Made by a program: the position numbers and the translations under genes. The notes under the pieces were generated by a model. That model was not told the origin of the DNA. It ran no database searches and saw only the letters and a program-made list of their open reading frames with translations. A stretch of 64,000 bases of DNA from Flavobacterium orientale (GTDB taxonomy: Bacteria > Bacteroidota > Bacteroidia > Flavobacteriales > Flavobacteriaceae). This document shows positions 629 to 17,730 of this stretch, piece by piece (the stretch's first letter is position 1; each line of letters opens with the position of its first letter). The stretch lies in assembly GCF_014638005.1 (NCBI RefSeq), contig NZ_BMFG01000005.1:124001-188000 (forward strand). Direction: 5' to 3'.

Positions 629-1872
629 AAGAAGGTTGGGAATATAAAAAGTTAGGTGATTTAACAGAAGTAATTACTAAAGGAACTACACCTACCTCGG
701 TTGGATTTAATTTTGAAGATGAAGGTGTCAATTTTGTAAAAATAGAATCTATTACATCTAATGGTAATTTCATAGTTAATAAATTCGCTCATATTTCTAG
801 CAAAGCAAACGAAGCATTGAAAAGGTCTCAACTTAAAGAAGGTGATATTTTATTTTCAATAGCTGGTGCACTTGGTAGAACTGCAATTGTATCTAAAGAT
901 ATATTACCTGCAAATACAAATCAAGCACTATCAATTATAAGACTTAAAGTTGATGAAAATGTATTAATAGAATATATATTTTTAGCTTTAACTTCTGGAT
1001 ATGCTTTAGAGCAAATTGAAAAGTTTAAAGGAGGTGTTGCTCAGCAAAATTTATCATTAGAACAGATGAAAAGTTTTCAAATCCCAATCCCACCACTACA
1101 AGAACAAAAACAAATCGTAGCAATTCTAGACCAAGCCTTTGAAGCCATAGACCAAGCCAAAACCAATATTGAAAAAAACATAGCAAACGCAAAAGAGTTG
1201 TTTCAATCTAAATTGAATGATATTTTTAGTCAGAAAGGTGATGGTCGGGAGGAGAAGAAACTTGAGGAAATATCTAATATTATAAACGGTTATAGTTTCA
1301 AGAGTAACGATTTTTCGGATGATAACGAAATTAAGTCTATTAAAATTACAAACGTTGGAATTATGGAATTTGTTGAGGATATTTCAAATAATTTACCATC
1401 TTCATTTGCCAATGATTATTCAAAAGTTAAAGTTCATGAAGGAGATTTAGTTTTAGCTTTAACACGTACTATTATTTCTGGAGGACTAAAAGTTGCTCGA
1501 GTTCCTAAAAGTTATCATCATGCTTTATTAAATCAACGAGTTGCAGCTATAGTACCTAATGTTGAAAAAGTGGATAGTGATTATTTATATTATTATTTCA
1601 GTTCAAATATTGTGTATAATTATGTTCTAGACAATGTAAATACTCTAATGCAACCTAATTTGTCCATTGAAGATTTAAAAAGAATGATTGTACCTATTAC
1701 CTCAATAAAAGGTCAAAAAACAATTAGTACTCAAATTAAGAATTTATCAGAAAATACCAATTCTTTGATTAATAACTATGGAATAAAATTAAAAGATTTA
1801 GAAGACCTAAAAAAATCGATACTCCAAAAAGCGTTTGCAGGAGAGTTGACAAATAAAGAAGTGGAGGTATGA
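625..1872 (+). CDS. hsdS: Type I restriction-modification specificity subunit S
   Basis: DNA-recognition subunit of the type I complex. The 415 residues show the usual two-fold layout: a first target recognition domain (about residues 1-150), a central conserved helix beginning with PPLQEQKQIV (about 155-200) that spaces the two domains, a second recognition domain (about 205-385) and a distal conserved helix ending LQKAFAGELT near the C-terminus. The two recognition domains read differently, so a bipartite asymmetric target is expected. It overlaps hsdM upstream and the following small ORF downstream, both by ATGA. HsdS also sets the specificity of methylation. The recognition sequence cannot be read from the gene. 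Confidence 0.93.
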   Translation: MKEGWEYKKLGDLTEVITKGTTPTSVGFNFEDEGVNFVKIESITSNGNFIVNKFAHISSKANEALKRSQLKEGDILFSIAGALGRTAIVSKDILPANTNQALSIIRLKVDENVLIEYIFLALTSGYALEQIEKFKGGVAQQNLSLEQMKSFQIPIPPLQEQKQIVAILDQAFEAIDQAKTNIEKNIANAKELFQSKLNDIFSQKGDGREEKKLEEISNIINGYSFKSNDFSDDNEIKSIKITNVGIMEFVEDISNNLPSSFANDYSKVKVHEGDLVLALTRTIISGGLKVARVPKSYHHALLNQRVAAIVPNVEKVDSDYLYYYFSSNIVYNYVLDNVNTLMQPNLSIEDLKRMIVPITSIKGQKTISTQIKNLSENTNSLINNYGIKLKDLEDLKKSILQKAFAGELTNKEVEV

Positions 1873-2207
1873 CTTGGACAGAAGCTAGAAAAAAAATAGA
1901 AACCTCTCTAAAAGTAAATAACGATTCAATTGATAAAAAATCAATATTTAGAAATGTTAGAGCCGCAAATGATAAAGGTTTCTCAATAGGTAAAGGACAA
2001 AACCAAGCTGTTTCTATTCCATGGACAATGCTTGAAACTATTTTTATTTCTTCTAAAAGAAAAGGGTATTATGACAACTCTGTTTTTAAAGAAAAATTTG
2101 AAGATAAATTAAAAAGCACAAGTTGTTATGTTCGTATTGTTGGAAACATCTTTTGTGTTGCAGGCATTATGAAAATTGAAGGAAATAAGTTTATATTTAT
2201 AAATTAA
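1869..2207 (+). CDS. Small protein of unknown function inside the type I RM operon
   Basis: A 112-residue soluble protein encoded between hsdS and hsdR. Its ATG overlaps the hsdS stop (ATGA) and its stop lies about 10 bases before the hsdR start, so it is almost certainly co-transcribed and translationally coupled. No signal peptide, membrane segment or catalytic motif is visible. The arrangement of a basic N-terminus, a central stretch SIPWTMLETIF and a C-terminal segment with two cysteines (SCYVRIVGNIFCVAG) suggests a compact alpha/beta domain, possibly nucleic-acid binding. I do not recognise the family with confidence. Its position suggests an accessory or regulatory role in the RM system, which is inference. 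Confidence 0.75.
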   Translation: MTWTEARKKIETSLKVNNDSIDKKSIFRNVRAANDKGFSIGKGQNQAVSIPWTMLETIFISSKRKGYYDNSVFKEKFEDKLKSTSCYVRIVGNIFCVAGIMKIEGNKFIFIN

Positions 2208-2217
2208 AACATTGTTA

Positions 2218-4677
2218 ATGAACGAAGCACAAACCAAACACGATTTAATTACACCCGCTTTGCAAGCTGCAGGTTGGGGCATTGTGGAAGGCAGTCGTTT
2301 GCGTTTGGAGTTTCCCATAACCAAAGGTCGCTTAATTGGGCAAGGCCGGAGAGCCACACCCCTTTTTGCAGACTACGTTTTAGAATATAAAAACAGAAGA
2401 ATTGGTATTGTAGAAGCCAAAAAAAGAGATGATTATTATACTGCTGGTGTCGGTCAAGCCAAAGATTATGCCGAGCGTTTAAACATTCGCTACAGCTATG
2501 CTACCAATGGGTTACAAATCTACGAGATAGATATGGACGAAGCCGCAGAAGGCGAAGTTCCAAAATACCCAACCCCCGACGAGCTTTGGGAAATGACCTA
2601 CCCTACTCCAAAAGAGGAGTATAAAATAGAAATCGCCAATTGGAAGGAACGTTTGTTCGCTGTTCAATTTGAAGACCGAGGTGGCACATGGCAACCAAGG
2701 TATTACCAACAAAATGCCATTGCCAAAGTGTTAGAAGGCATCGCTGAAAAGAAAAACCGAATGTTGCTCACCTTAGCCACAGGAACAGGAAAAACAGCCA
2801 TTGCTTTTCAGATTGCTTGGAAACTATTTCATGCCAAATGGAATTTAAAACGTGATGCCAGTAGAAGTCCAAGAATATTATTTTTAGCCGATAGAAACAT
2901 ATTAGCCGACCAAGCTTTTAATGCTTTCAATGCCTTTGATGTAATTGATGAAAACATCAAAGTACGCATCAGTCCAAAAGAAATAAAAAAGAAAGGACAA
3001 GTTCCTACCAATGGAAGTATCTTCTTTACCATATTTCAAACCTTTATGACTAGCAAACAAAAGGAAGATACCGTAGAAGAAGAAAATGACCGTGATTATA
3101 TGATTGCCGCTGAACCGATGGAAGTATATGGTAGTTCTGAATTTAATTTCGGGCAATATCCAGCTGATTTCTTTGATTTAATTATTATTGACGAATGTCA
3201 CCGCGGTGGAGCCAATGACGAAAGTTCGTGGCGAGCTATTATGGAGTATTTTTCTCCTGCGGTGCAATTGGGTTTAACGGCAACGCCAAAACGTGATGTG
3301 AATGCAGATACGTATAAATATTTTGGTGATCCCATCTATACCTATGCTTTAAAAGATGGTATTAATGATGGATTCCTTACGCCATTTAAAGTAAAAGAGA
3401 TCCAAACCAATTATGATGAATATACCGTTACAGCAGATGATATTATTATAGAGGGTGAAGCCAAAGTGGGTGACACTTTTACCTATCGTGATTATGGTAG
3501 AAAAATCATCATTCAACAAATAGAAGAATACCGTGTTAAGAAATTCTTGGAGTTGATTAATCAAAATCAAAAGACGTTGGTTTTTTGTGCTACGCAAAAA
3601 CATGCGGCATTAATTCGTGATTTAATTAATCAGTTTTCGACAAGCAGAAACATTAATTACTGTCATCGTGTAACGGCTGATGATGGAAAAATGGGTGAAC
3701 AACATTTAAGAGATTTTCAGGATAATGAAAAGAGCATTCCAACGGTATTAACGACTTCACAAAAATTAAGCACTGGTGTAGATGCACCTGAAATTAGAAA
3801 TATCGTTTTGTTGCGTCCTGTGGATTCAATGGTTGAATTTAAACAGATTGTAGGTCGAGGTACGAGATTATTTGATGGTAAAGATTATTTTACGCTGTTT
3901 GATTTTGTGCATGCACACGAACATTTTAAAGACCCCGCTTGGGATGGAGAACCATTGGAGCCAGAACCACCAACAGGCGGTGGAACACCAAGAGTTTGCA
4001 AAGTGTGTCAAGTTAAACCCTGTGTTTGCGAAAAAGAGGAAGAAAAAGAATGTGACGAATGCCATAATATTCCTTGTGTTTGCGATATTCCTGAAAGCAA
4101 AATAATACGAGTTAAACTATCTGACAATAAAGAAAGAGAAATAGATTCTACGGTAAAAACTTCTTTTTGGAGTCCAACCGGTACTCCTATTTCATCTATT
4201 GAATTCATACAACAATTGTTTGGCGATTTGCCTAGTTTCTTCGCTAATGAAGAAGAATTGCGTAAACTGTGGAGTTTGCCAAGCACTAGAAAAAAATTAC
4301 TCACTGAATTAAGTGAAAAAGGCTATACCAATGAACAATTGGAAGATTTACGACTGTTAATTCATGGAGAAGATAGTGACTTATTTGATGTGCTAAATTA
4401 TATCGCGTATAGCAAAGACTTAGTACCTAGATTTGAAAGAGCTACTAGAGCAAAAGTACAGTTAGGAGATTACAATGCTAAACAACAAGAGTTTTTAAAC
4501 TTTGTATTAGAACAATACGTAAAAGAAGGTGTTAATGAATTGGATGATTTAAAATTGTCGCCTTTATTAGTTTTAAAATACAAAGCCATTGCCGATGCCA
4601 AAAAAGAACTTGGAGAAATAAAAAGTATTAGAGATGTTTTTATTGGGTTTCAGCAATACTTATATAAAACATCCTAA
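2218..4677 (+). CDS. hsdR: Type I restriction endonuclease subunit R
   Basis: Motor and nuclease subunit of the type I system: it translocates DNA with ATP and cleaves away from the target. From the ATG at 2218 (preferred over a TTG two codons earlier) the order is: an N-terminal PD-(D/E)XK nuclease with D52 and the E66-A-K68 pair; a superfamily 2 helicase core with Walker A TGTGKT (188-193) and DECH box (325-328); the second RecA domain with the VGRGTR motif; a cysteine-rich stretch (about 594-622) with two CxxCxxxPCVC-type clusters that probably bind zinc; and a C-terminal helical region that would dock on the methylase. About 819 residues, normal for the EcoEI-like branch. Complete and apparently intact. 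Confidence 0.94.
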   Translation: MNEAQTKHDLITPALQAAGWGIVEGSRLRLEFPITKGRLIGQGRRATPLFADYVLEYKNRRIGIVEAKKRDDYYTAGVGQAKDYAERLNIRYSYATNGLQIYEIDMDEAAEGEVPKYPTPDELWEMTYPTPKEEYKIEIANWKERLFAVQFEDRGGTWQPRYYQQNAIAKVLEGIAEKKNRMLLTLATGTGKTAIAFQIAWKLFHAKWNLKRDASRSPRILFLADRNILADQAFNAFNAFDVIDENIKVRISPKEIKKKGQVPTNGSIFFTIFQTFMTSKQKEDTVEEENDRDYMIAAEPMEVYGSSEFNFGQYPADFFDLIIIDECHRGGANDESSWRAIMEYFSPAVQLGLTATPKRDVNADTYKYFGDPIYTYALKDGINDGFLTPFKVKEIQTNYDEYTVTADDIIIEGEAKVGDTFTYRDYGRKIIIQQIEEYRVKKFLELINQNQKTLVFCATQKHAALIRDLINQFSTSRNINYCHRVTADDGKMGEQHLRDFQDNEKSIPTVLTTSQKLSTGVDAPEIRNIVLLRPVDSMVEFKQIVGRGTRLFDGKDYFTLFDFVHAHEHFKDPAWDGEPLEPEPPTGGGTPRVCKVCQVKPCVCEKEEEKECDECHNIPCVCDIPESKIIRVKLSDNKEREIDSTVKTSFWSPTGTPISSIEFIQQLFGDLPSFFANEEELRKLWSLPSTRKKLLTELSEKGYTNEQLEDLRLLIHGEDSDLFDVLNYIAYSKDLVPRFERATRAKVQLGDYNAKQQEFLNFVLEQYVKEGVNELDDLKLSPLLVLKYKAIADAKKELGEIKSIRDVFIGFQQYLYKTS

Positions 4678-4694
4678 AGTAAAATATCTATATT

Positions 4695-4958
4695 ATGGCA
4701 GTAATCGTAAGAACAAGAAAAATTAGACCATCTACAAGAAAATCAACCTCTGTAAATTATCGGGTAGAAATATCGAAGGTTGGAAAAGATGATACTTTAG
4801 AAGTTGAAGTATCTCATGAAAGTAATTCTTTTTTGAGAACATACTATTTTCATGGAAAAGATATCGCTAATAAAAATAATATTAGTTTCAAAGTAATACA
4901 AGAAGTTCCAGAAATTGAAATATTATGGAGTGGAGCTAGTCCATTTAAGGTGGAATAA
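4695..4958 (+). CDS. Small hypothetical protein after hsdR
   Basis: An 87-residue protein beginning 17 bases after the hsdR stop on the same strand, probably the last gene of the RM transcription unit. It starts with a very basic segment (RTRKIRPSTRKS) and continues with alternating hydrophobic residues suggestive of beta-strands. No signal peptide or known motif is visible, and I do not recognise it. The codon use is AT-rich like the genes that follow rather than like hsdR, so it may have arrived separately. Coding status is supported by spacing, a clean ATG and an uninterrupted frame, not by homology. Confidence 0.55.
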   Translation: MAVIVRTRKIRPSTRKSTSVNYRVEISKVGKDDTLEVEVSHESNSFLRTYYFHGKDIANKNNISFKVIQEVPEIEILWSGASPFKVE

Positions 4959-4980
4959 GACTTCTACTTAAGTATTTTAG

Positions 4981-5109
4981 GTAGTGTTCAGGGCGGAGAG
5001 TTTCTCTGACCTCCCAAATTATATTTATGATTTGTTGTTGAGTAGGATTAATGTGAGTGTGCAGACGGATGAGGTTGTTGAGGGGCTGCCGAGGGTGAGG
5101 TTTGAGTGA
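4981..5109 (+). pseudogene. Possible C-terminal gene relic
   Basis: An open frame of 42 codons without a start codon, ending in TGA at 5107-5109. It is richer in G than the surrounding DNA and reads like the end of a soluble protein (DLLLSRINVSVQTDEVVEG). It may be the remnant of a lost gene between the RM operon and the next block. It is too short to identify, and chance openness cannot be ruled out. The rest of 4959-5149 shows no further feature. Confidence 0.25.
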
Positions 5110-5149
5110 TTAAATCACTAATTACAAGTAACTAATAAATTTATATAGT

Positions 5150-6277
5150 ATGAAAAATTGTATTACACTTTTGTTAATTGTAATTAGTTATTGCAGTTAT
5201 GGACAGACGTATGAAACTTTAAAAAATGTTAAACTACCTGACAATATAATACTCACTAAAAAAGTAACTGTTCCATGTTCACAACCTGTAAACAAAGGTG
5301 ACAAGGTTGTTAGTGAAACAGAATATAAACATACTGTAGATGGTAAAACAACAACTAAAACTATAATCAAAGAAGATGTAATTTCTACTGATGGAGAAAC
5401 TACTGACGTTGACAAAGAAATTAAAGTAAAAGTAAAATCAATTAAAGATGGAAAAGCAAATATTTATGTAGATGAAAAAGATAATTCGATCATCCATGTT
5501 AATTATTGGCTAAATCCAACAAATAAGCTTTTAAAGAATACGGAAATTGAATATATTATTAGAAGTTACGATTGTGAAGGAGTACTAAAAGAAAAGAAAA
5601 TAAAAGCTAAACTTGAAACTGATAAAAATTTCTTATTGAAAAAATATATAAAATTAGATAATGAAGATTTTACGAAACACAGCGATACAATAATTAAGGT
5701 TTTTAAAAGCGATGCAACTACAGTAGATTATTACTTAGTAAATACATATGACAGAAAAGTAGATTATACATTTCAGTTAGCTAATCGTAAAACAATAGCA
5801 GTAAAATATACCTCAGTAGTTTTGGGGGCAATTACAATACCAATAAAATACAGACCTGGACAAGAAAAAAATGATATCAAGGTAAAGGAAGATTTTTCTG
5901 CTGATTTCAATGCTGGAATTTTTGCTGGGTGGACAGTTGGAAAGCAAAAAGTAAATTACCAAAGAGGAGTTGGATTCAAAGATAACGTGAGTTTTTGGTC
6001 GGCTACAATTGGTCCATTTTTTAGTATAGGTACAACTTCATTAAACAAAAACAACACAACGATTGGAGATACACCTATTACAACTGAAGACACCCAAAAC
6101 ATAGGAACAGTCTCTACTGGCTTAGGATTGATTAAAAATGTATATAACTTTCAGTTCGGTGTTTTCTATGGTTGGGATATTGGAGTTGGCAGAGACTCTA
6201 ATGATTGGAACTATGATGGCAAACCATGGTGGGGTTTTGGTATTGGTTATAGTTTGACAGGATTTTGGAAGAAATAG
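5150..6277 (+). CDS. Secreted protein of unknown function, probable outer-membrane association
   Basis: A 375-residue protein with a clear Sec signal peptide (hydrophobic residues 4-14, probable cleavage after CSYG, before Q19). The N-terminal half is rich in Lys, Asp and Thr with strongly alternating residues; the C-terminal third (about 250-375) is rich in Gly and aromatics, has amphipathic strands and ends GYSLTGFWKK, resembling the end of a small beta-barrel. The family is not recognised. It sits inside a run of cytoplasmic defence genes, 20 bases before the AbiGi-like gene and on the same strand, which is unusual for an envelope protein. Whether it shares their transcript is unknown. Confidence 0.7.
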   Translation: MKNCITLLLIVISYCSYGQTYETLKNVKLPDNIILTKKVTVPCSQPVNKGDKVVSETEYKHTVDGKTTTKTIIKEDVISTDGETTDVDKEIKVKVKSIKDGKANIYVDEKDNSIIHVNYWLNPTNKLLKNTEIEYIIRSYDCEGVLKEKKIKAKLETDKNFLLKKYIKLDNEDFTKHSDTIIKVFKSDATTVDYYLVNTYDRKVDYTFQLANRKTIAVKYTSVVLGAITIPIKYRPGQEKNDIKVKEDFSADFNAGIFAGWTVGKQKVNYQRGVGFKDNVSFWSATIGPFFSIGTTSLNKNNTTIGDTPITTEDTQNIGTVSTGLGLIKNVYNFQFGVFYGWDIGVGRDSNDWNYDGKPWWGFGIGYSLTGFWKK

Positions 6278-6296: not shown

Positions 6297-7151
6297 ATGG
6301 AAGTAAATTTAAGTTCAAATACTTTATTTCATTTTACTAACGAAAAAAAATATCTAATCAGTATTTTAAAAAATGGATTATATGTAAGATACAGCTTGGA
6401 GAATTATCAAAATTTGATCAACAATAAAGCCGAAATTGTTTTTCCAATGGCTTGTTTTTGTGATATACCGTTATCACATGTTAAGAATCACACAAAAACA
6501 TACGGAAGATATGCTATTGGTTTAACAAAAGAATGGGGTATGAAAAATAAAGTAAGTCCTGTTATTTACTCCTATCCTAATTCAGAAACAACAGAAATAC
6601 TGAATTATGTATTCGAAAATATTGAACGGTTTTTTGATATAGAGCTAGAAAAAATACAAAACGTAAAATTAAATAAAAGCACTGAAAAACTCATTGAACA
6701 TTATGATGAGAGAGACAGAGAATTTGGAAAGAAAATCAGTGGTGTTTATAATAACCTCAGCAATTTTATTAGATATATAAAACCCTACGAAGGTAAATTC
6801 TATAGAAATGGAAATTATCTTAAAAGTAATGTTAAGTTTTATGATGAAAGAGAGTGGAGATTCACTCCTACAAGAGATTTTCTTTCAAGTGTTGGTATAA
6901 AAGATAGTTATATTAAAGACTTATATATTGACCCAATAAAACGAAGAGCTTTAAATATAAAACTAGCAAAACACATAAAACTAAATTTCGAACCTAAAGA
7001 TATTCGTTTTATTATTGTTGAAAAGGATAAAGAAATTCCTGAAATGATAAATCAATTAGAAAAAATTTTTGGTAACAAATCCACTTCAAATGATTTAAAG
7101 CTATTGAGTACTAGATTGATTTCTATGGAACAAATATTGGAGGATTTGTGA
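6297..7151 (+). CDS. AbiGi-like abortive-infection protein
   Basis: A 284-residue protein resembling the putative abortive-infection (AbiGi) family. Visible features are the N-terminal FHFT (residues 11-14) followed by a helix and L..NGL, the conserved CFCDIPLS (53-60), YGRYAIGL (69-75) with KEWG just after, and DEREWRF (about 183-189). In this family the protein is described as the antitoxin partner of AbiG; a role in phage defence is known only at that level. Cytoplasmic, with no signal peptide or membrane segment. It lies 37 bases upstream of the first ATPase on the same strand, so it may be the first gene of the ATPase-HNH-ATPase block. Function inside that block is inference. Confidence 0.7.
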   Translation: MEVNLSSNTLFHFTNEKKYLISILKNGLYVRYSLENYQNLINNKAEIVFPMACFCDIPLSHVKNHTKTYGRYAIGLTKEWGMKNKVSPVIYSYPNSETTEILNYVFENIERFFDIELEKIQNVKLNKSTEKLIEHYDERDREFGKKISGVYNNLSNFIRYIKPYEGKFYRNGNYLKSNVKFYDEREWRFTPTRDFLSSVGIKDSYIKDLYIDPIKRRALNIKLAKHIKLNFEPKDIRFIIVEKDKEIPEMINQLEKIFGNKSTSNDLKLLSTRLISMEQILEDL

Positions 7152-7188
7152 TATTGACGATAAAATTTATTCTATTAAGTTAAAAGAT

Positions 7189-9042
7189 ATGAGAATTGCT
7201 GCTATTTATATTTATGAAGATTCTTTACCTTATGTGTTTGGTGAGAACCATAAAGGTCAAACTATAAATTTAGGTGGAGAATACTTATATGATGTTGGTG
7301 AAATACGGGGTAGAACTGTCATATTGAAAAAAGAAAAAAATAAAAATTTCATTAACGATTTTTGGAATAATAATATCATTCTAATTTCAGCAATTGTGGG
7401 TGCTAATGGAACAGGAAAATCAAAAATTTTAGAGTATATAAAAACAGGATGTGAACTAGTTATTGAAATTGGAAAGGCATCTAGAATACTTTGGTCAAAA
7501 GATGTAGGTCAATTTCTTTTTCACACACCTTATTTAACTGAAAATAATGAAGGACAAGACCAATCAAATGTATTTAACTTATCCAAACTTTCTCAAATGA
7601 CAAAAGATTCAGGTTCTGCAACTATGGATTTTAACGGTCATTGGGAATATCATACATCAGAAAGATTGAGAAGAATTTTAATTTTTTTAGAAAACGAAAA
7701 CTTTAAAAAAAGTTTTAATGATTTGAAAATCTCAACTTTTGATAAAGTTAAAATAAAATTTTTAAGAATTAAAGAAGATGATTGGAATACATCAAGAAAC
7801 TTTATTCCTTATTTTGAAGCTTTAATTAAGTTAAAAGAAAAGGAATGGAAAAAGACTGAAATAGAGTTGCAAAAAAAATTTAAAATAAAAAATAATGAAG
7901 ATTTAAAAAAAAATAATAGTTATAAAATTGCAAGTCAAAAATTACGATTAAGATTAACTATATTAGAAACTATAATTTTAAAAATTCATTCTATTCTAGA
8001 ACGAACCGGAAATAAATTTTTGGAAGAAGGCTTTATAAATGGTAATAACTTTCCTACTGACCCAGAATTTAATAAAATTGAATCTACTAAAGAAGCTTTT
8101 TTTTGGTTCATTAACAATGCATACTTAAAATTGAGAAGTAAAAAATATTTTTTGCCTGTAAAAGATATTGAAAACTTAGTAAATACGATATTGCCACTAG
8201 TCGATTTAGATAGTAAAATTGATAATTGGACTATTCTAACTGTAAATTTTGATAATGCAAAAAAAATTATTGAATCCTATCAAGCATTTTTAATTTCATT
8301 TAAAGACATCTTTACATATGATGAAAAAATATTCATTACATTTTACCCAGATAAAAATTTAAGTACAGGTGAAATGTCGTTTTATGAATTATTTTCTTCC
8401 TTGAACAATGCAAATTATCGCATAAAAAACAAATTGGATTCACAAGCTTATGAGAAAGTAATAGATCATAAAAATTATACATTTTTATTAGATGAGTCTG
8501 ATTTAGGTTTTCACCCATATTGGAAAAAAAAATATATAAAATTTTTATGTAATATTATTCCAAAAATATTTAATAGTAAAACCATACAAATAATAATTAC
8601 AACTCACGACCCTTTAACTTTATCAGATATTCCAAATAATAATATTGTTTACCTCAGAAAACAAAACTATAAATCAGAAGTATTAAATTTTGATAGCAAC
8701 GAAAGACCTAATAAAACATTTGGTGCAAATATAACAGATTTACTATCTGATAGTTTCTTTATTGAAGATGGTTTAATTGGAGAGTTTGCTAAAGATAAAA
8801 TTGAAAAAACCATTAATTGGATTAATACGGAGATAATAAAAAAAGAAAAATCTCAAAATAATTATGTAACCGATGAGAAAGAATACCAACATCATAAAAA
8901 AATCATATCAATCATTGATGAACATGTAATAAGATTAAAATTAGCGGAGATGCTAGAAGAATTAAAAGGAGTTAAAAAATTACAAGAAGAATTAATTGAT
9001 AAAGAGATAGAATATCTACAAAATAAAAAAAGAATGTTATGA
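7189..9042 (+). CDS. SMC/OLD-type AAA ATPase, PtuA-like (first of two)
   Basis: A 617-residue ABC/SMC-class ATPase. Walker A GANGTGKS is at 71-78, a Lys/Glu-rich helical (coiled-coil) middle spans about 150-330, the signature LSTGEMS begins near 391, Walker B ends in LLDESD near 432-437, and the H-loop TTHDPL lies near 471. The C-terminal part carries FGANITDLLSDSFF and IGEFAKDKI, shared with the second ATPase downstream. Such ATPases paired with an HNH nuclease are the PtuA component of Septu defence. The stop overlaps the HNH start by ATGA (9039-9042), so the two are coupled. All ATPase residues are present. The Septu assignment comes from motif plus neighbour, not from a search. Confidence 0.85.
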   Translation: MRIAAIYIYEDSLPYVFGENHKGQTINLGGEYLYDVGEIRGRTVILKKEKNKNFINDFWNNNIILISAIVGANGTGKSKILEYIKTGCELVIEIGKASRILWSKDVGQFLFHTPYLTENNEGQDQSNVFNLSKLSQMTKDSGSATMDFNGHWEYHTSERLRRILIFLENENFKKSFNDLKISTFDKVKIKFLRIKEDDWNTSRNFIPYFEALIKLKEKEWKKTEIELQKKFKIKNNEDLKKNNSYKIASQKLRLRLTILETIILKIHSILERTGNKFLEEGFINGNNFPTDPEFNKIESTKEAFFWFINNAYLKLRSKKYFLPVKDIENLVNTILPLVDLDSKIDNWTILTVNFDNAKKIIESYQAFLISFKDIFTYDEKIFITFYPDKNLSTGEMSFYELFSSLNNANYRIKNKLDSQAYEKVIDHKNYTFLLDESDLGFHPYWKKKYIKFLCNIIPKIFNSKTIQIIITTHDPLTLSDIPNNNIVYLRKQNYKSEVLNFDSNERPNKTFGANITDLLSDSFFIEDGLIGEFAKDKIEKTINWINTEIIKKEKSQNNYVTDEKEYQHHKKIISIIDEHVIRLKLAEMLEELKGVKKLQEELIDKEIEYLQNKKRML

Positions 9043-10025
9043 TTTATATTAATTCTAATGATGCAAAAATTAAATCTGCATTAAACTTTCATATAAATGG
9101 TTTATTTTCAATTTTGAAAAGAAGAGTTAGTCGCTGCACAAATAGTGACATTAGAAACTTTTTATCAGATGGGAATTTAATGATTTTTTTACAAGGAAAT
9201 CCAGATGAGATTCAAGGTTTAAATAATCAATTTTATAGTAGTATTACTAATTATACATTCAATGGATATAATGATTTTAGATTAAATATTGATAAAGAAC
9301 CAAAATCTAGAGCTGAAAAATGTAATGTTACAAAATACAGAACTTTACATTTATTAATTGAAACCATTTTCAATTATGAAACTTCTTTCTCAAAAAAAAC
9401 AACAAAATATTCTACTTACAATTTAGCTAAAAACTTGGATATTAATACTTGCGTTTATTGCAACAGAATGTATACTAAAACAGTTTTTACCCCTGATAAA
9501 TTAACTAGACCAGAGTTTGACCATTGGTTTCCAAAAAGCAAATACCCTCTTTTAGCTCTATCATTTTATAATTTAATTCCTAGCTGTCATATTTGTAATA
9601 GCTCTTTAAAAGGTGCTACAAATTTGAATCTTAATGAGTATTTACATCCTTATATCGATGATGAAAAAACCATAAATAATGATATCAAATTTAGTTACTA
9701 TAATAAATCATTAAATACTTACGGTTTTAAAATGAATACTCTCAGTAGCAAAGGAAAGAATACAATTGAAGCATTTAAGATTAAAGAAATATATGAAACT
9801 CATGAAGAAGAAATTAAAGAATTAAGACGTATAAGAGATGTTTATTCTGACAGTTATTTACAAAAATTATCTACATTATATAAAGGAATTATTTCTCAAG
9901 ATGAAGTTTATAGATTGGCTTTTGGAGTATACATAGAAGAGGCTAAGTTTGAAAAAAGACCTTTGAGCAAAATGAAAAAAGACATATTAATTGAATTAGG
10001 AATAATTACAAAAAATGAAAAGTAA
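9039..10025 (+). CDS. HNH endonuclease, PtuB-like
   Basis: A 328-residue nuclease with a zinc-stabilised HNH (beta-beta-alpha metal) core in the middle: C138-x2-C141, the catalytic D161-H162-W163, and C183-x2-C186 followed by N187. The N-terminal 130 residues and the C-terminal 130 residues are helical and would carry partner contacts. In Septu systems a PtuB nuclease of this kind is held by the PtuA ATPase complex and degrades nucleic acid on phage infection; that is family knowledge. Here the gene overlaps an ATPase gene at both ends (4 bases upstream, 11 bases downstream), so one nuclease is translationally linked to two ATPases. Catalytic residues are intact. Confidence 0.85.
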   Translation: MIYINSNDAKIKSALNFHINGLFSILKRRVSRCTNSDIRNFLSDGNLMIFLQGNPDEIQGLNNQFYSSITNYTFNGYNDFRLNIDKEPKSRAEKCNVTKYRTLHLLIETIFNYETSFSKKTTKYSTYNLAKNLDINTCVYCNRMYTKTVFTPDKLTRPEFDHWFPKSKYPLLALSFYNLIPSCHICNSSLKGATNLNLNEYLHPYIDDEKTINNDIKFSYYNKSLNTYGFKMNTLSSKGKNTIEAFKIKEIYETHEEEIKELRRIRDVYSDSYLQKLSTLYKGIISQDEVYRLAFGVYIEEAKFEKRPLSKMKKDILIELGIITKNEK

Positions 10026-12045
10026 TTTTAAGATTATTGCTTTAAAAGCACTTGAAGAATGTGATTCTAACTTTACTAAAGTTTTAGAAAAAGAAAAATT
10101 ATATTATTTCTATTCTGATTATGAAATTATTATAAATAATGATGGTAGAGAAGAAATTAAAATTAAGAAGGAGATTGTTGATGGAATATTTAATGACAAT
10201 GAAATTAAAAATGATGTAAATATTAATATTTGTGCAATTGTTGGTAAAAATGGTTCTGGAAAAAGCTCAATTATTGAATTGCTATTTAGAGCTATTAATA
10301 ACATTGCTTATAATTTTAAATTTGAATCCGGTATACCAAAAAAAACTATTACAGCCGATTTAAAGATAGTTGATGGTATTCATGTTGAATTTTATTATAA
10401 AACGGATAAATTTTACAAAGTAATAGTAAATGAATCAAACTTTGAGGTTTTTAGTTTCAATACAAACGGGTTAGTAAATGAAAAATCTGAAGAATCAAAG
10501 TTTGATTTGAGTAAATTATTTTATACTGAAGCCGTTAATTATTCTCATTATGCTTACAATAGTTTTGAATTTGGGTTTATAAAAAATGGAGTGTTTGTAA
10601 ATTGGCTAAAGGAATTATTTCACAAAAATGATTCTTATCAAACACCTTTAGTTTTAAATCCAATGAGAACTGAGGGTAATTTTGATATAAATAGAGAAAA
10701 TGATTTAGTTAAACAACGCTTATTAGCAAACATTCTAAGACCTACGCAAAAAGGTAAAATTGATTTTAGAAAATTTGGTGACAATTTAAAAGCTGATACA
10801 TTAATTTTAAAACTTAAACCAAAAAAAGAAAAAGTTTCATATTGGATCAAAGATAGTAAAGGTGAAGATGTTGAAAGATTTTTTAAATTAGGTGCTTTTA
10901 CGATTAAAGAAAAAGATGATTTGGTAAATACTTTAATGTTTGAATTACATGGTATTTCAAATATTAAACTAGGTTTATCAAAAAAAATAAAATACGATTT
11001 AGCTAGGCAATATATTGTTTATAAACTTGTTTCTATTTGCAAAAAATATGACGATTATAAACAATATTTACTTCCTAAACATTATAAATTCGACACTAGT
11101 CTTTTTAAAGAGTTTATTAAACAAATAAAAGAAGACGATAGTCATATTACTTTTAAATTAAAGCAAACGTTAAATTACTTGAAAAATGATTTCATAAATT
11201 TAAGTAATGAAGAAATTGAGTTAAACGTCGAAGAACTTTCAAAAAATATTCAAAAAAGAAAAAAAAGAAATCAGTCAATTTTAGAATTAATACCTCCTCC
11301 TATTTTTGATATTGAAATAGTTCTTAAACCTATCGAAGAATTAGATAAAATCATTAAATTTAGTTCGCTGAGTTCTGGAGAGAAACAACAAATTTATATG
11401 GTAAGTTCTTTACTTTACCATCTATATAATTTAGACTCAGTAACTGGGAATAAAATTAAATATGAAAATATAAATATCATTTTTGAAGAAGTAGAACTAT
11501 ACTTTCATCCGCAAATGCAAAAATCTTTTATTAAATATTTTTTAGATAGTATAAGTAGAATTGAATTAAAGAAAATTAAATCAATAAATATATGTTTTGT
11601 TACACATTCACCTTTCATTCTTTCAGATATTCCAAGCAATAATATTATGTTTTTAGAAGTTATTGATGGCAAAGCCATTCAAAAGAAAGAAAATCTTAAA
11701 AAAACGTTTGGTGCAAACATTCATGAATTACTAACTGATAGTTTTTTTATGACTGATGGATTTATAGGAGATTTCGCAAAAGATAAAATTGATGAAACTA
11801 TTAATTGGCTAAACACGGAATTATTGAAAAAAAGAGAATTTGAAAAAAAAGAAACTTCTGAAAGATATAATGTAAATAAAGAAGACTTTAAGTTTCACAA
11901 AGGCATCATTTCTTTAATTGATGAACCAATCATAAAAATAAAATTATCAGATATTTTATCTGAACTTGATGATAATGATGAATTTCATGATGACATTATC
12001 AATGAACAAATAGAAAATTTGAAAAAACGACTCAAAAAGAAATAA
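10015..12045 (+). CDS. SMC/OLD-type AAA ATPase, PtuA-like (second, divergent paralogue)
   Basis: A 676-residue ATPase of the same class as the one at 7189-9042. Walker A GKNGSGKS is at 77-84, the signature LSSGEKQ begins near 452, Walker B reads NIIFEEVEL near 487-495, and the H-loop VTHSPF is near 530. The C-terminal module [23 protein letters not shown] and NWLNTELL closely parallels the first ATPase, and both end in a KI..Q/E..L-rich helix, so they are paralogues that have diverged strongly elsewhere. In Walker B the usual Asp before the catalytic Glu is Glu here. The start overlaps the HNH gene by 11 bases. This is the last gene of the block; DUF262 follows 11 bases later. Confidence 0.85.
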
Positions 12046-12056
12046 TTTCAATTACC

Positions 12057-13847
12057 ATGCAAAAATACTCCGTAAACCAACACCTCATCGAAACGCTATT
12101 AACTTGGGTAAAGTCTGGCGAGATTGCTATTCCCGAAATTCAACGTCCGTTTGTTTGGGACAGTTCCAAAGTGAGGGACTTAATGGATAGTTTGTATCAA
12201 GGATTTCCGGTGGGTTATGTCATTGCCTGGCGAAATCCGAATGTGCGTTTGAAAGATGGTAGCATGAGTGAAGGTAAAAAAATATTGATTGATGGGCAGC
12301 AACGGGTAACTGCTTTAACAGCTGCCTTATTGGGTGAATATGTTGTGGATAAAACCTATCAACGCGTCAAAATAAAAATCGCCTTTAACCCTATTCTTGA
12401 AAAATTTGAAGTACAAAACCCTGCTATATTAAAAGACAGTAGTTGGATTCCAAATATAGCAGAAGCTGTTAGTGGTGAAATCAGTATTTTAAAATTGGTT
12501 CGTAATTATTTAGCGGTTAATCCTGAAGTTGATGAAGATTTAGTGGAACGTGCTTTTACCAATTTGATTAATATTCCGAAAAAGCAAATTGGAATTATCG
12601 AATTATCCCACGATTTGGATATAGAAACCGTTACCGAAATATTTATTCGAATCAATTCAAAAGGAGTGGTTTTAAGTCAGGCTGATTTTGCAATGAGTAA
12701 AATTGCTTCCAATACAGAATACCAAGGCAATGTATTAAGAAAAGCCATTGATTATTTTTGTCATTTGGCAATTTCACCGGAGTTCTACAAACACATTGTG
12801 GATAATGATCCTGATTTTGCGAAAACCGACTTTTTTGCAAAAATGAAATGGTTAAAATCGGAAAATGAAGATTTATATGACCCGGAATACACGGACTTAA
12901 TCCGTGTTGCTTTTACATCGCAATTTAATAGAGGTCGTTTATCAGACTTAGTTAGTTTGCTATCCGGTAGAAATTTTGAAACCCGTTCGTTTGAAGATGC
13001 CATCGCAGAACAATCCTTTGAAAAATTAAAACAGGGTGTTTTTAATTTTATGAATGAAACGCATTTTAAACGTTTTTTGATGATTATTAAATCTGCAGGT
13101 TTTATATCGCCTAAATTAATACGTTCTCAAAATGCTTTGAACTTTGCGTATATACTTTATTTAAAATTAAGAGAATTAAATGTCAATTCTGTTTCTATTG
13201 AAAGCTATGTAAAGCGTTGGTTTGTTTTTTCGGTATTAACCGGAAGATATTCAGGTTCGCCGGAATCAGTATTTGATTTTGACATCAAACAAATACACAA
13301 CCGTCCGTTTGATGAGTATTTAAAAGAAAAAGAAGAAGGTGAATTATCCGAAGCTTTTTGGAATGCTTCACTACCTCAAAGTCTCGACACTTCGGTAGCC
13401 AGCAGTCCGTATTTCAATGTGTTTTTAGCTTCACAGGTCAAGGCTAATGATAGAGGGTTCTTATCTAAAGATGTAATGGTTAGTGATTTAATTTCCTTGC
13501 GAGGGGATATTCACCACTTATTCCCAAGAGATTTTTTGAAAAAGAATGGGTTAGATAGAAGTAAGTACAATCAAATAGCGAACTATGTTTATATGCAATC
13601 GGAAATCAATATTAAAGTGGGTAATAAACCACCTAAAGATTATTTTGAATTGATTACTAATCAGATTGCTGCTGAAAACAAATTAGTGAGTGGTTTATCT
13701 TCTCACGAGGAATTAGTAGCTAATTTGAAAGCAAATTGTGTTCCAACTGAAATCATGAACATGAATTTAGAGGATTATCAGGAGTTTCTAATATTGCGAA
13801 GAAAGCTGATGGCACAAAAGATAAAGGAGTATTATTTTTCGTTGTAA
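12057..13847 (+). CDS. GmrSD-like DUF262/DUF1524 restriction enzyme
   Basis: A 596-residue protein of the DUF262 class, to which the type IV restriction enzyme GmrSD (which cuts phage DNA with modified cytosines) belongs. The N-terminal domain has [10 protein letters not shown] (about 23-32) and the nucleotide-binding motif DGQQR (about 79-83). A long helical middle follows, and the C-terminal domain has HHLFP (about 486-490) with a downstream Asn-rich segment, the His-Me finger nuclease pattern of DUF1524. Both halves are fused in one chain. It starts 11 bases after the second ATPase but has a clearly higher G+C, which suggests a separate origin. A role against modified phage DNA is inferred from the family. 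Confidence 0.85.
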
Positions 13848-13899: not shown

Positions 13900-14577
13900 A
13901 TGGCTCGACGATCAAGACCTTTAAATACAACTAGAAGTGAATTCTGGTTGAGAAAACTTATAAATGAACATTCAAATTTATTGAATGAGTATTTACTTGA
14001 AAATAAAATAATTTCTAAAAAAGATATTATTGAGTGGTTATCACCGATTTCAAATGATGACAATGCTGAATACTACGACGAGGAGTTTTTAGAAAAATTA
14101 AAAATTGATAAGAATAAATTAAAAATTCCATTAAAAGAGTTTTGGCCTTCTGGTGGTCCTAGATGGGATGGTATAGGTAAAACCAATACTAATAAATACT
14201 TTTTAATTGAGGCAAAAGCCCATATTGAAGAAGCCGTTGATTATGGTTCAGGTGCAAAAGCAATAAAATCAATAAACTTAATTGAGAAATCAATTGAAGA
14301 AGCAAAGAATTTCTATTCAAATAATCAATCTGCTTATTGGCAAAAGCCATTTTATCAATATGCAAATAGGCTTGCACATTTATACTACCTGAAAGAATTA
14401 AACGAATTAAATGCCTATGTCATATTTATCTATTTTTGTAATGCACCTGATGTGGTTAAACCTACCAGTAAAGAAGAATGGACGGGACACATTAGAACTA
14501 TTGAAAAAGTATTTGCATTAAACGGAAAATGCAAGAATAAGGTAAATTTCCTTATAGATACTGATAAGTTAAAATAA
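13900..14577 (+). CDS. PD-(D/E)XK-like nuclease fold protein, unknown function
   Basis: A 225-residue cytoplasmic protein. After an N-terminal helical region of about 80 residues it shows WPSGGPRWDGIG with D90, and about 14 residues later LIEAKAH with E104 and K106. That D-x(n)-E-x-K spacing is the core of the PD-(D/E)XK nuclease fold. A helix-rich region with WQKPFYQYANRLAHLYYL follows, as expected for the rest of such a fold. The start at 13900 is the only reasonable ATG; 52 bases separate it from the DUF262 gene. The family looks conserved but has no established role known to me. Given the neighbours, defence-related DNA cleavage is plausible. Confidence 0.65.
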   Translation: MARRSRPLNTTRSEFWLRKLINEHSNLLNEYLLENKIISKKDIIEWLSPISNDDNAEYYDEEFLEKLKIDKNKLKIPLKEFWPSGGPRWDGIGKTNTNKYFLIEAKAHIEEAVDYGSGAKAIKSINLIEKSIEEAKNFYSNNQSAYWQKPFYQYANRLAHLYYLKELNELNAYVIFIYFCNAPDVVKPTSKEEWTGHIRTIEKVFALNGKCKNKVNFLIDTDKLK

Positions 14578-14721: not shown

Positions 14722-15357
14722 ATGGCTAAAAAACCTAAATATTACGTAGTTTGGTATGGTAGAGAAACAGGAGTGTTTGACTCATGGGAATTGTGCAAGC
14801 AACAAATAGATGGTTTCCCTTCGGCAATTTACAAATCATTCAACACCAAAGAAGAAGCTACAACTGCATTTGCCAATGATAGTTCCTATTATATTGGCAA
14901 AAAAAGTTTAGCCAATAAAATAGTAAAAAAAAATCTATATCATTTAGGTGTCCCAATTACTGAAGCCATTGCAGTAGATGGAGCATGGAATACCGCAACA
15001 GGTATGGTGGAATATCAGGGAGTGTATCTAAAAACCTATGAAGTTTTGTTCCATATAGGTCCATTAGAAGATGGTACCAATAACATCGTAGAGTTTTTAG
15101 CCCTTGTTCATGCTTTGGCTTTATGTAAACAATGGCATTGGAAAGTACCGATTTATTCTGACAGCACCATTGCCCTAGGTTGGGTAAGAGATAAAAAGGC
15201 AAGAACCAATCATTTACCCAGTGAAAAGAATAAAAAATTGTTTGAAATGCTAGAAAGAGCGGAAAAATGGTTGGAAAACAATACTTTTGATAACGAATTA
15301 TTAAAATGGGAGACCAAAGCATGGGGTGAAAATCCTGCTGATTTTGGGAGAAAATAA
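14722..15357 (+). CDS. Ribonuclease H family protein with viroplasmin-like N-terminus
   Basis: Degrades RNA in RNA-DNA hybrids. Residues 1-55 are a caulimovirus viroplasmin-like domain (KYYVVWYGRETGVFDSW, YKSFNTKEEA) that binds hybrids, and the rest is an RNase H fold with all four acidic residues: D86, E124 (NNIVEFLAL), D147 (YSDST) and D207 (NPADFG). The 211-residue length is normal for this two-domain type. The gene lies only six bases before the UvrD-like helicase, so the pair is probably co-transcribed and may act together on R-loops or hybrids. The upstream gap (14578-14721) is AT-rich and may hold the promoter. The assignment is strong; a defence role is only suggested by place. Confidence 0.9.
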   Translation: MAKKPKYYVVWYGRETGVFDSWELCKQQIDGFPSAIYKSFNTKEEATTAFANDSSYYIGKKSLANKIVKKNLYHLGVPITEAIAVDGAWNTATGMVEYQGVYLKTYEVLFHIGPLEDGTNNIVEFLALVHALALCKQWHWKVPIYSDSTIALGWVRDKKARTNHLPSEKNKKLFEMLERAEKWLENNTFDNELLKWETKAWGENPADFGRK

Positions 15358-15363
15358 ATCATT

Positions 15364-17730
15364 ATGTTAGAATACAATAACACCATACTTAGGGGTTTAA
15401 ACGATAAACAAAAGGCATCCATACTTTCGGAAGCCAAAAGAGTCTTAGTGCTTGCAGGTGCAGGTTCAGGTAAAACCAAAACTGTTATTTCAAAATTACT
15501 TTATTTAATTTTTGAAAAAAACGTAAAACCATCTTCCATATTAGCCATTACTTTTACAAAAAATGCTGCTAATGAAATGATTGACCGTTTAATTGTTTCT
15601 AGTGAAACCACAAATACTTATGAAGCTTTTATTCAAAATAAAACTACAACCGCTTTACAAAAAGATGTTGAGAGAAGGAAAAGAATTCAAGAGCAACCGT
15701 GGATTTCAAATTTAACCATCAGAACATTTCACTCTTTATGCTATAAAATACTCCGCGATAATGGTAATCCGGTTTTTGACAACAAATTCAAATTAATTAC
15801 AGATAATGATGTTGAAGAAGTTGGTGTTGAGTTAAAAGGAATGGATATCTTATCAAGTGAAAAACCAAAAGATATAATTGGTAAAATGTTAATTCTTGCT
15901 TGTAAGAATAGAGGCTATTTTTTAAAACTAAAAAGATATATTTTAGATTATTACGTTGATAAAGTTTCTTTAGACAAAGAAATGAAATCCTACGCCAATG
16001 AAGGTCAACGAACGTATACAACACTAAAAGGAGAAACAGTAAAATCAAAATCAGAACGCGATATTGCCGATTGGTTGTATCGCCATAACATTAAATATGT
16101 ATATGAAAAAGTAACCAATTTTAAAGATTTTAATTTTAAACCTGATTTCTTTATTCCGCAAGCCAATCTTTATTTGGAACATGTAACAGATAAGAGTTAC
16201 TCTATGGAAAATAAAGAAAAACAGTTTATAAAAAGTGGCAAAAATTGTGTTATTACTTACGAATCCATCATGAATAATTCTATGTTGTTTAATTTGGCAA
16301 TGGAAAGAATTATAAAGGGTAAAATTACGGAAGAAATTACGGAAGAAATTTCTTTGAATTATGAAGAAGAATTTAAAAGCTATCATAATAAAGTGGATGA
16401 GTTTTTAAAAACGGTGATGCGACTTCAGTCTATGATTAAAGGTGAAGACATTAATCCTATCAGTTTATTTGATAAATCATCCATTAGCGAACATGAAAGA
16501 ATTAGAGTTTTTTATGAGCTTGCCATTCCATTAATTGAATCTTATAAAAGTTATTGCACCAATAAATCCTACGTTGATTTTGACGATCTAATCATCTTAA
16601 CTGTTAAGCTTCTTATTGAAAACCCTGATGTTAGAAGTTTCTATCAAAACAAATACAACTATTTAATGGTAGATGAATTTCAAGATGTCAATGGTTTGCA
16701 AGTTAAATTACTGGACTTATTACTTAAACCTGAAAATCAATTGTTTTGTGTAGGAGACGATTGGCAAAGTATTTATGGCTTTAGAGGTTCGGATGTTGAT
16801 TATATCGTAAATTTTGAAAAGCATTACAAAAATTGTGAAGTTTATAAACTGGATATGAATTACAGAAGTACGCAAACCATTGTTGGTGCAAGTAATGAAG
16901 TAATAAAACATAACAAAAATCAGATAAGCAAAGACATAAAAGCTTTTAAACAAACACCAAGCAAAATTCAAATTTATAGAGCAAAAAGTTTAGATATTGA
17001 TGGTGTAGATTTTTTAGTTGAAGAAGTAAGGAAACTCTATAGCAGTGGATTGGGTAAAGACGATATACTAGTTTTATATAGACGATCAAAAATGTATAGT
17101 CACTATTTTAGTGCATTGAAAGACAACAAACTATTTGTGTCATCCAAAACGATACATGCTTCTAAAGGATTGGAAGCAAAAGCAGTATTCATTATTGGTT
17201 TGAAAGAAGGAAATGGTGGCTTTCCCGATATATGGTTAGATGATGCTATTTTTAGGGTTGTTAAAGATGTAAAGTACGACATTTTACTTGAAGAAGAAAG
17301 ACGCTTGTTTTACGTTGCCATAACAAGAGCAAAAGACCAATTGTTTTTGATAACAGAATTAGGTAATGAATCTTCTTTTGTGGATGAAATTCCTAATCAT
17401 TTTTTCCAAATTAATAAATCTGGATTAAAAAGTGATGTTGAATTAATGCTCGCTTGCGATAAATGTGGGTTGTCAATAAATGAATCAGATAACTTTTGCA
17501 GTAAATGTGGTAATAAATTAACCTCTGAATTAACACCAAAGGAACTTCCTGATTATGTTAAAAAAGCAAGGTTAATTCATAAAAATGCATATGAAACTTG
17601 GAGTAGTGATGACGATTTAAAACTAAAAGAACTCTATTTGCAAGGAAATTCAATAAAGCAATTAAGTGCGTATTTTGGGAGGAACTCAGGAGCTATTACT
17701 GCTAGAATTCAAAAATTAGGATTTGAATAA
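15364..17730 (+). CDS. UvrD/Rep-type superfamily 1 helicase with inserted nuclease-like domain and zinc ribbon
   Basis: A 788-residue superfamily 1 DNA helicase. Walker A GAGSGKT lies about 32-38, and motif II VDEFQDVNG begins near 436, followed by QSIYGFRGSD and the C-terminal TIHASKGLEAKAVF and RRLFYVAITRAK motifs. Between the 1A and 1B parts is an insertion (about 225-300) with SERDIADWL, KPDFFIP (near 259) and YLEHV (E272), which looks like a PD-(D/E)XK nuclease-like domain with the final Lys position changed. After the helicase core come a four-cysteine zinc ribbon (C698, C701 and a CxxC near 712) and a helical C-terminal segment like a SANT/Myb-type DNA-binding domain. It is coupled to RNase H upstream. 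Confidence 0.87.
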   Translation: MLEYNNTILRGLNDKQKASILSEAKRVLVLAGAGSGKTKTVISKLLYLIFEKNVKPSSILAITFTKNAANEMIDRLIVSSETTNTYEAFIQNKTTTALQKDVERRKRIQEQPWISNLTIRTFHSLCYKILRDNGNPVFDNKFKLITDNDVEEVGVELKGMDILSSEKPKDIIGKMLILACKNRGYFLKLKRYILDYYVDKVSLDKEMKSYANEGQRTYTTLKGETVKSKSERDIADWLYRHNIKYVYEKVTNFKDFNFKPDFFIPQANLYLEHVTDKSYSMENKEKQFIKSGKNCVITYESIMNNSMLFNLAMERIIKGKITEEITEEISLNYEEEFKSYHNKVDEFLKTVMRLQSMIKGEDINPISLFDKSSISEHERIRVFYELAIPLIESYKSYCTNKSYVDFDDLIILTVKLLIENPDVRSFYQNKYNYLMVDEFQDVNGLQVKLLDLLLKPENQLFCVGDDWQSIYGFRGSDVDYIVNFEKHYKNCEVYKLDMNYRSTQTIVGASNEVIKHNKNQISKDIKAFKQTPSKIQIYRAKSLDIDGVDFLVEEVRKLYSSGLGKDDILVLYRRSKMYSHYFSALKDNKLFVSSKTIHASKGLEAKAVFIIGLKEGNGGFPDIWLDDAIFRVVKDVKYDILLEEERRLFYVAITRAKDQLFLITELGNESSFVDEIPNHFFQINKSGLKSDVELMLACDKCGLSINESDNFCSKCGNKLTSELTPKELPDYVKKARLIHKNAYETWSSDDDLKLKELYLQGNSIKQLSAYFGRNSGAITARIQKLGFE

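Follow-up and report, generated by a model that had tools for sequence, protein, structure and literature searches.

A window of 64,000 nucleotides from Flavobacterium orientale (assembly GCF_014638005.1, contig NZ_BMFG01000005.1, positions 124,001 to 188,000) contains a cluster in which the gene for a single predicted HNH nuclease lies between genes for two different PtuA-like ABC-type ATPases, here called ATPase-alpha and ATPase-beta. We consider it probable, with considerable room for doubt, that these genes form a three-gene PtuAB-like system of the PDC-M62 type, in which the diverged alpha and beta ATPases share one HNH nuclease. The three-gene architecture is real, recurrent and rare. 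To our knowledge, the triggers of PtuAB-type systems and the manner in which their ATPases control the HNH nuclease are not settled. Two diverged ATPases on one nuclease separate the parts of such a system, in that their differences should correspond to sensing and what they share to nuclease control.

The three genes and their recurrence

All three genes are on the forward strand. The gene for ATPase-alpha (ATPase-1; 7189-9042) encodes 617 amino acids, that for the nuclease (9039-10025) encodes 328, and that for ATPase-beta (ATPase-2; 10015-12045) encodes 676. The first two overlap by 4 bases and the last two by 11 bases, and a co-directional AbiGi-like gene (6297-7151, forward strand, 284 amino acids) ends 37 bases before ATPase-alpha. 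This order, strand and spacing are as reported by the first-pass annotation, which was made from the sequence of the window and had proposed a new Septu-type system composed of these four genes. The open reading frames (ORFs) were called mechanically, and gene starts may shift. The G+C content of the block is 23-26%, compared with 33.6% for the window.

The best PADLOC family is PDC-M62A for ATPase-alpha (1.7e-92) and ATPase-beta (5.1e-48) and PDC-M62B for the nuclease (1e-61), while the Septu PtuA and PtuB models match these proteins more weakly. ATPase-alpha possesses the motifs GANGTGKSK (Walker A, 7399-7425), LSTGEMS (signature, 8359-8379), TFLLDESDLGFHP (Walker B, 8479-8517) and ITTHDP (H-loop, 8596-8613). 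In ATPase-beta, the corresponding motifs are GKNGSGKSS (10243-10269), LSSGEKQ (11368-11388), a Walker B with EE in place of DE (11473-11511) and FVTHSP (11596-11613). The nuclease contains the series CxxC...DH...N...CxxCN, with CxxC at 9450-9461, DH from 9519 and N..CxxCN at 9570-9599. The earlier claim that all active-site motifs are intact is thus accurate for the presence of the ATP-site and HNH motifs and inaccurate for the Walker-B Asp of ATPase-beta, which is Glu (residue 491; 11485-11487). Of 54 ATPases compared from the beta class, 9 have this Glu, and it is additionally present in L243 and L245.

Predicted structures point to the same relatives. The AlphaFold2 model of the nuclease (predicted local distance difference test score, pLDDT, 93) finds its strongest matches, at Z 11.4-12.2, in eight chains from Septu and retron I-A complexes, and nothing else scores above Z 3.8; for 8eea_G the values are Z 11.6, 203 aligned residues and a root-mean-square deviation of 3.7. 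The eight chains are taken to be the PtuB/HNH chains, and the modelled nuclease has the PtuB fold, although the Foldseek E-values for this model are weak, the best being 0.012. By its fold and motifs, the nuclease should act like the nucleases of PtuAB systems. The model of ATPase-beta (pLDDT 83) best matches Septu PtuA (8eea/8ee4, Z 15.6) together with retron PtuA, with retron-Eco8 and the SMC/Rad50 heads at Z 13-14.5. Its C-terminal 100 or so residues are hardly tested by the fold because almost every match stops at about residue 580. The PtuA fold is assigned to ATPase-beta from its model, and both ATPases have weak sequence matches to PtuA chains.

Pooling all searches gave 167 M62-type loci. 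Counted as distinct where the last 200 residues differ, their HNH ORFs number 163, including a few broken ones such as L187. An M62A-like ATPase lies directly upstream of 155 of these ORFs, six of which also have one downstream; for the other eight, no ATPase was detected directly upstream. Among the 149 upstream-only ORFs, 139 have at least 1.5 kb of downstream sequence and no same-strand ATPase within 2.5 kb, and the remaining 10 are near a sequence edge. M62-type loci thus normally consist of one ATPase and one HNH nuclease. Loci with split or extra upstream pieces (L070, L073, L090, L119, L120, L134 and L187) or with an ATPase on the opposite strand (L051) were not counted as triplets. The six triplets are the window, L180 (genome G511), L181 (G456), L182 (G433), L243 (G1143) and L246 (G1044). 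All have the order alpha-HNH-beta, and the gaps before and after the HNH gene are -4/-11 bases in the window, -23/-4 in L180, -26/-4 in L181, -8/+2 in L182 and L243, and -4/-1 in L246. Since five loci besides the window repeat this order, all with gaps between -26 and +2 bases, the cassette is beyond chance, and the earlier observation of two different PtuA-like ATPases around one HNH nuclease holds outside this one locus as well. The six triplets amount to four lineages because L180 and L181, and likewise L182 and L243, are close relatives.

Triplet counts mix several searches, and the scans led by ATPase-beta find only triplets that hold a beta gene. Such a scan of 398 genomes of the genus (E <= 1e-80) matched 11 genomes, 6 of them with triplets, and one of 397 genomes of the family matched 9, with the window as the only triplet seen; one family locus, L215, ends at a contig edge just past the start of its HNH gene. 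An HNH scan of 259 genomes matched 44, including 4 with triplets, and contexts were read for all of these except G502, a 50-residue remnant. No triplet was present among the loci of an HNH-led scan of a genome collection, which covered the best 80 of 176 relatives. Relatives of ATPase-beta were absent from 50,697 phage records at E <= 1e-10 and from a viral scan with the single protein, and those on plasmids (3 and 2 records) are less than 60% identical. A viral scan with an HNH alignment found at least 12 distant loci, none seen as a triplet, some of which end at contig ends.

The two ATPases belong to distinct classes. A tree built from 125 ATPases places the upstream ATPases of four triplets within an alpha clade of 26 rows (Shimodaira-Hasegawa-like approximate likelihood ratio test, SH-aLRT, 99) and the downstream ones within a beta clade of 54 rows (SH-aLRT 98), while L243 and L246, which the tree did not hold, were classed by best match. 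The trees were quick ones, with SH-aLRT support and no bootstrap. Every other member of the two clades is the only ATPase of a pair (22 pair loci for alpha and 50 for beta), so that both window ATPases belong to classes otherwise found alone with an HNH nuclease, and the triplet combines two kinds of pair ATPase. The PADLOC name PDC-M62A covers both classes, and it is also the best family for both ATPases of L180, L182 and L246. The first-pass annotation had regarded separate occurrence of the two ATPases in other genomes as grounds for giving up a joint system. Taken literally, such occurrence is what these pair loci display, and the recurrence of the triplet stands beside it.

The components do not share a single history. 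On the quick trees, and with groups named after the layouts had been seen, approximately unbiased (AU) tests rejected one clade for the four triplet alphas (p 2.5e-28) and for the four triplet HNH nucleases (p 4.7e-9); one clade for the betas was not rejected with four rows (p 0.27) and was rejected with six (p 6e-47), because the L246 beta is sister to the pair beta L102 (support 99). A single origin of the triplet with joint inheritance was rejected accordingly for the alphas, the nucleases and the six-row betas. The window alpha groups with the L246 alpha (support 97), the window nuclease with those of L246 and of the pair L060 (support 96), and the window beta with the L180 and L181 betas (support 100). 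It follows that the architecture persists or re-forms while its parts are exchanged and its order and spacing are kept. Moreover, HNH lineages of pair loci switch between alpha and beta partners (nine changes; starred branches force seven per label). The closest nucleases across classes, those of L098 (alpha) and L113 (beta), are 71% identical. Their ATPases share 39% identity over aligned columns, a figure that rises to 58% for the C-terminus and falls to 11% for the middle region. One nuclease lineage can thus go with either class.

The gene pairs for which the ratio of nonsynonymous to synonymous substitution rates (dN/dS) was computed are under purifying selection, with values of 0.08-0.20. 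Between L182 and L243, dN/dS is 0.138 for alpha, 0.200 for the nuclease and 0.089 for beta, and between L180 and L181 it is 0.116 for the nuclease and 0.078 for beta. The value for the window and L180 betas is 0.152, with synonymous changes near saturation.

A proposed shared nuclease and its alternatives

The mosaic triplets and the partner switching in pairs provide ready-made chimeras for testing this division. Both also point to the C-terminal 130 or so residues of the ATPase, which may be what accompanies the nuclease. The comparison of regions took in 22 pair ATPases of the alpha class and 57 of the beta class, with the C-terminal region defined as beta residues 546-676. The alpha-beta distance in this region tracks the distance between the HNH nucleases (rho 0.59; none of 1000 label permutations as high), whereas in the middle region it does not (rho -0.02; 643 of 1000 as high). 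Values for the N-terminal part (0.10; 80 of 1000) and for the part from the signature to the H-loop (0.13; 24 of 1000) are low as well. Within the beta class, the correlation with HNH distance is 0.50 for the C-terminus as opposed to 0.02 for the middle. Over the pair loci, alpha and beta C-termini share a mean identity of 34% and their middle regions 14%; for the two window ATPases the corresponding figures are 45% and 10%. From these sequence comparisons, we infer that the C-terminus may go with the HNH nuclease and that the middle may act as the sensor. In the window, the proposed docking regions for the nuclease would be the last 130 or so residues of ATPase-beta (11650-12042) and the matching C-terminal region of ATPase-alpha (8650-9039), and the proposed sensor region would be residues 131-440 of ATPase-beta (10405-11334), all on the forward strand.

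We infer the following scheme for sensing, docking, the nuclease target, the defence role and the sharing of one nuclease. ATPase-alpha and ATPase-beta would each sense a different phage-related trigger through their own variable middle region, and the similar C-terminal region of each would hold the HNH nuclease. The trigger would cause an ATP-driven rearrangement of the ATPase scaffold, by which the nuclease would be released or activated. By analogy with Septu and retron I-A, the nuclease would then cleave nucleic acid, either tRNA or DNA, and cleavage would keep the phage from replicating, probably through arrest of the host cell. The data fit either a mixed alpha/beta oligomer or two alternative homomeric complexes, and we lean slightly towards the mixed form. 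A stricter version, in which an obligate heteromeric ATPase such as alpha2-beta2, with a separate sensor region on each type of subunit, surrounds one nuclease and forms a two-input enzyme whose parts are interchangeable by recombination, is possible but on the doubtful side. If true, bacterial defence would have its own counterpart of the hetero-dimeric SMC and ABC ATPases.

Several observations weigh against this scheme. The triplets are few, six loci or four lineages, and all come from one genus, which was also the most deeply searched. The contrast between regions is absent from the alpha class, where the correlation with HNH distance is 0.43 for the middle and 0.41 for the C-terminus. The co-variation of C-terminus and nuclease may itself reflect physical linkage, because the 3' end of a pair ATPase gene adjoins the HNH gene. 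Moreover, the C-termini of triplet ATPases are not finely matched to their own nuclease: the own-HNH percentile is at least 0.8 in only 2 of 12, both being the near-identical alphas of L180 and L181, as against 31 of 79 pair ATPases. Nor does the Walker-B change from Asp to Glu offer any sign of an asymmetric hetero-ATPase. It was considered as a mark of one and rejected, since EE is carried by the pair betas L183, L033, L065, L064, L108 and L245 as well as by five of the six triplet betas (window, L180, L181, L182 and L243), and the sixth, in L246, has DE. Within triplets, there was no consistent excess of alpha-beta similarity for partners from the same locus over foreign partners. In their C-terminal resemblance to pair alphas, triplet betas surpass most pair betas, but 8-11 of the 57 pair betas exceed them, and 26 of the 57, like the triplet betas, are on average closer there to alphas than to the nearest beta.

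The same layout would arise if two neighbouring M62 pairs had fused and lost one HNH gene, leaving the second ATPase as a leftover or as a redundant spare that is still expressed. In its favour, pairs exist with either class as their sole ATPase, the genes lie in a crowded defence island, and triplets make up only 6 of the 163 HNH ORFs. However, a leftover gene accords poorly with an identical order and near-zero gaps in all six triplets and with the low dN/dS of beta (0.089 and 0.078), and the expected intermediate, alpha-HNH-beta-HNH, occurs in none of the 167 labelled loci, where short remnants could be missed. Fusion with a leftover is in our judgement improbable. Less probable still is that ATPase-beta is a brake which holds an alpha-HNH effector inactive and is itself inactivated on infection, much as PtuAB in retron I-A is restrained by the retron parts, which neutralise it in retron-Eco7. 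On its own, PtuAB of retron-Eco7 arrests growth (PMC11555353), and the Walker-B Glu of five of the six triplet betas could slow the beta ATPase. However, the close relatives of the window beta in L183, L033 and L065 carry the same EE and are the only ATPases found beside their nucleases, and the L246 beta retains DE.

The first-pass annotation had also proposed that the AbiGi-like protein belongs to the system as a toxin or sensor, which would make AbiGi-ATPase-HNH-ATPase one four-gene system. The gene is co-directional and only 37 bases away, and the protein is a clear family member by PF10899 (129 bits; cut-off 22.4), although it reaches 57 of the 300 bits of the NCBIfam AbiGI equivalog. However, a profile built from nine AbiGi proteins of the genus matches only the window among the 167 M62-type loci, so that the other five triplets lack AbiGi, and M62 genes were found in none of the eight other AbiGi loci of the genus, for some of which the sequence examined was short or ran into a contig end. 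AbiGi occurs in 9 of 150 genomes, that of the window included. No AbiGii partner adjoins the gene, whose neighbours are a 375-residue protein and ATPase-alpha. AbiGi was therefore rejected as a component and is a neighbour of the system; a four-gene system is very unlikely. The reading that best joins these observations is still that of two diverged ATPases which would share one nuclease.

The surrounding defence genes

The window carries further genes of defence type, namely type I restriction-modification (RM) subunits between 26 and 4677, a GmrSD-type protein (12057-13847), an RNase H-like protein (14722-15357) and a UvrD-type helicase (15364-17730). The 375-residue protein (5150-6277) ends 19 bases before AbiGi, has by eye a signal-peptide-like start and no significant family match, and is perhaps an envelope protein inside the defence island. 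A 225-residue protein (13900-14577) has no Pfam, PADLOC or NCBIfam match; by eye, its stretch DGIG...FLIEAKAH resembles a PD-(D/E)XK nuclease motif. Rfam at the gathering score finds only a tRNA in the window, and scans for promoters with a pattern of the phylum and with sigma-70 gave no more sites than shuffles would.

The other triplets have neighbours of their own. In L182 (3002-4604) and L243 (10542-12144), the place that AbiGi takes in the window belongs to an AbiEii-type gene, which has an AbiEi-like partner and stops 4 bases short of ATPase-alpha; the AbiEii domain was read for L182, and AbiEii was counted in two upstream genes. In L246, a 1449-residue protein (1141-5490) begins 7 bases past the beta gene; its matches to NTPase/NACHT are weak, and its N-terminus resembles LmuA (3.4e-21). 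Across M62-type loci, HsdS, the type I RM specificity subunit, accounts for 20 of the 81 proteins directly upstream of the ATPase that came from 141 loci examined, as an uncontrolled count. ATPase-HNH pairs thus often appear to lie beside or inside type I RM operons.

Relationship to known systems

The closest known group is PDC-M62, whose A and B models are the best match for all three window proteins. The loci examined usually possess one ATPase and an HNH nuclease (149 of the 155 HNH ORFs with an upstream ATPase), whereas the window has alpha and beta flanking one nuclease. PDC-M62 itself overlaps Septu, because a survey of the Bacillus cereus group called 203 loci both Septu and PDC-M62 (PMC11811056). 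No description of the three-gene form was found in the literature searched, which left preprints and most subscription papers outside.

The window system resembles Septu in the PtuA fold of the beta model, the PtuB fold of the HNH model and the position of an ATPase upstream of the nuclease. In contrast to the two-gene ptuA-ptuB operon, it comprises three genes with a second ATPase, and its ATPases are longer, 617 and 676 residues compared with 465 for 8ee4. The NCBIfam PtuA and PtuB models, which are named for retron Ec78 proteins, have cut-offs of 500 and 150 bits, and the window ATPases reach 27.8 and 44.4 bits and the nuclease 22.1. In Septu EcB88, defence needs the Walker A and B and HNH residues, and tRNA-Tyr is cleaved in its variable loop on phage infection (PMC13096335). 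PtuAB of retron-Eco7 leads to loss of tRNA-Tyr, and another Septu was reported to target DNA (PMC11555353). With PtuAB of the type I-A retrons (Ec78/Eco7 and Ec83), the window system shares the fold of both components; for the matched retron I-A complexes, the titles of the Protein Data Bank (PDB) entries give PtuA and PtuB in a ratio of 4:2. It differs from them in its two ATPase genes, and no reverse transcriptase domain was found in the 10 window proteins scanned between 2212 and 15357.

PrrC and RloC also place a nuclease under the control of an ABC-type ATPase, and M62-type loci often follow an HsdS gene. However, PrrC and RloC are single proteins, whereas the window has a separate HNH protein and two ATPases. 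PrrC is silenced by its linked type I RM enzyme (PMC2610378). Overall, the window system would be PtuAB-like in its working, and it is a member of the PDC-M62 group by sequence and distinct from all of these systems in its composition.

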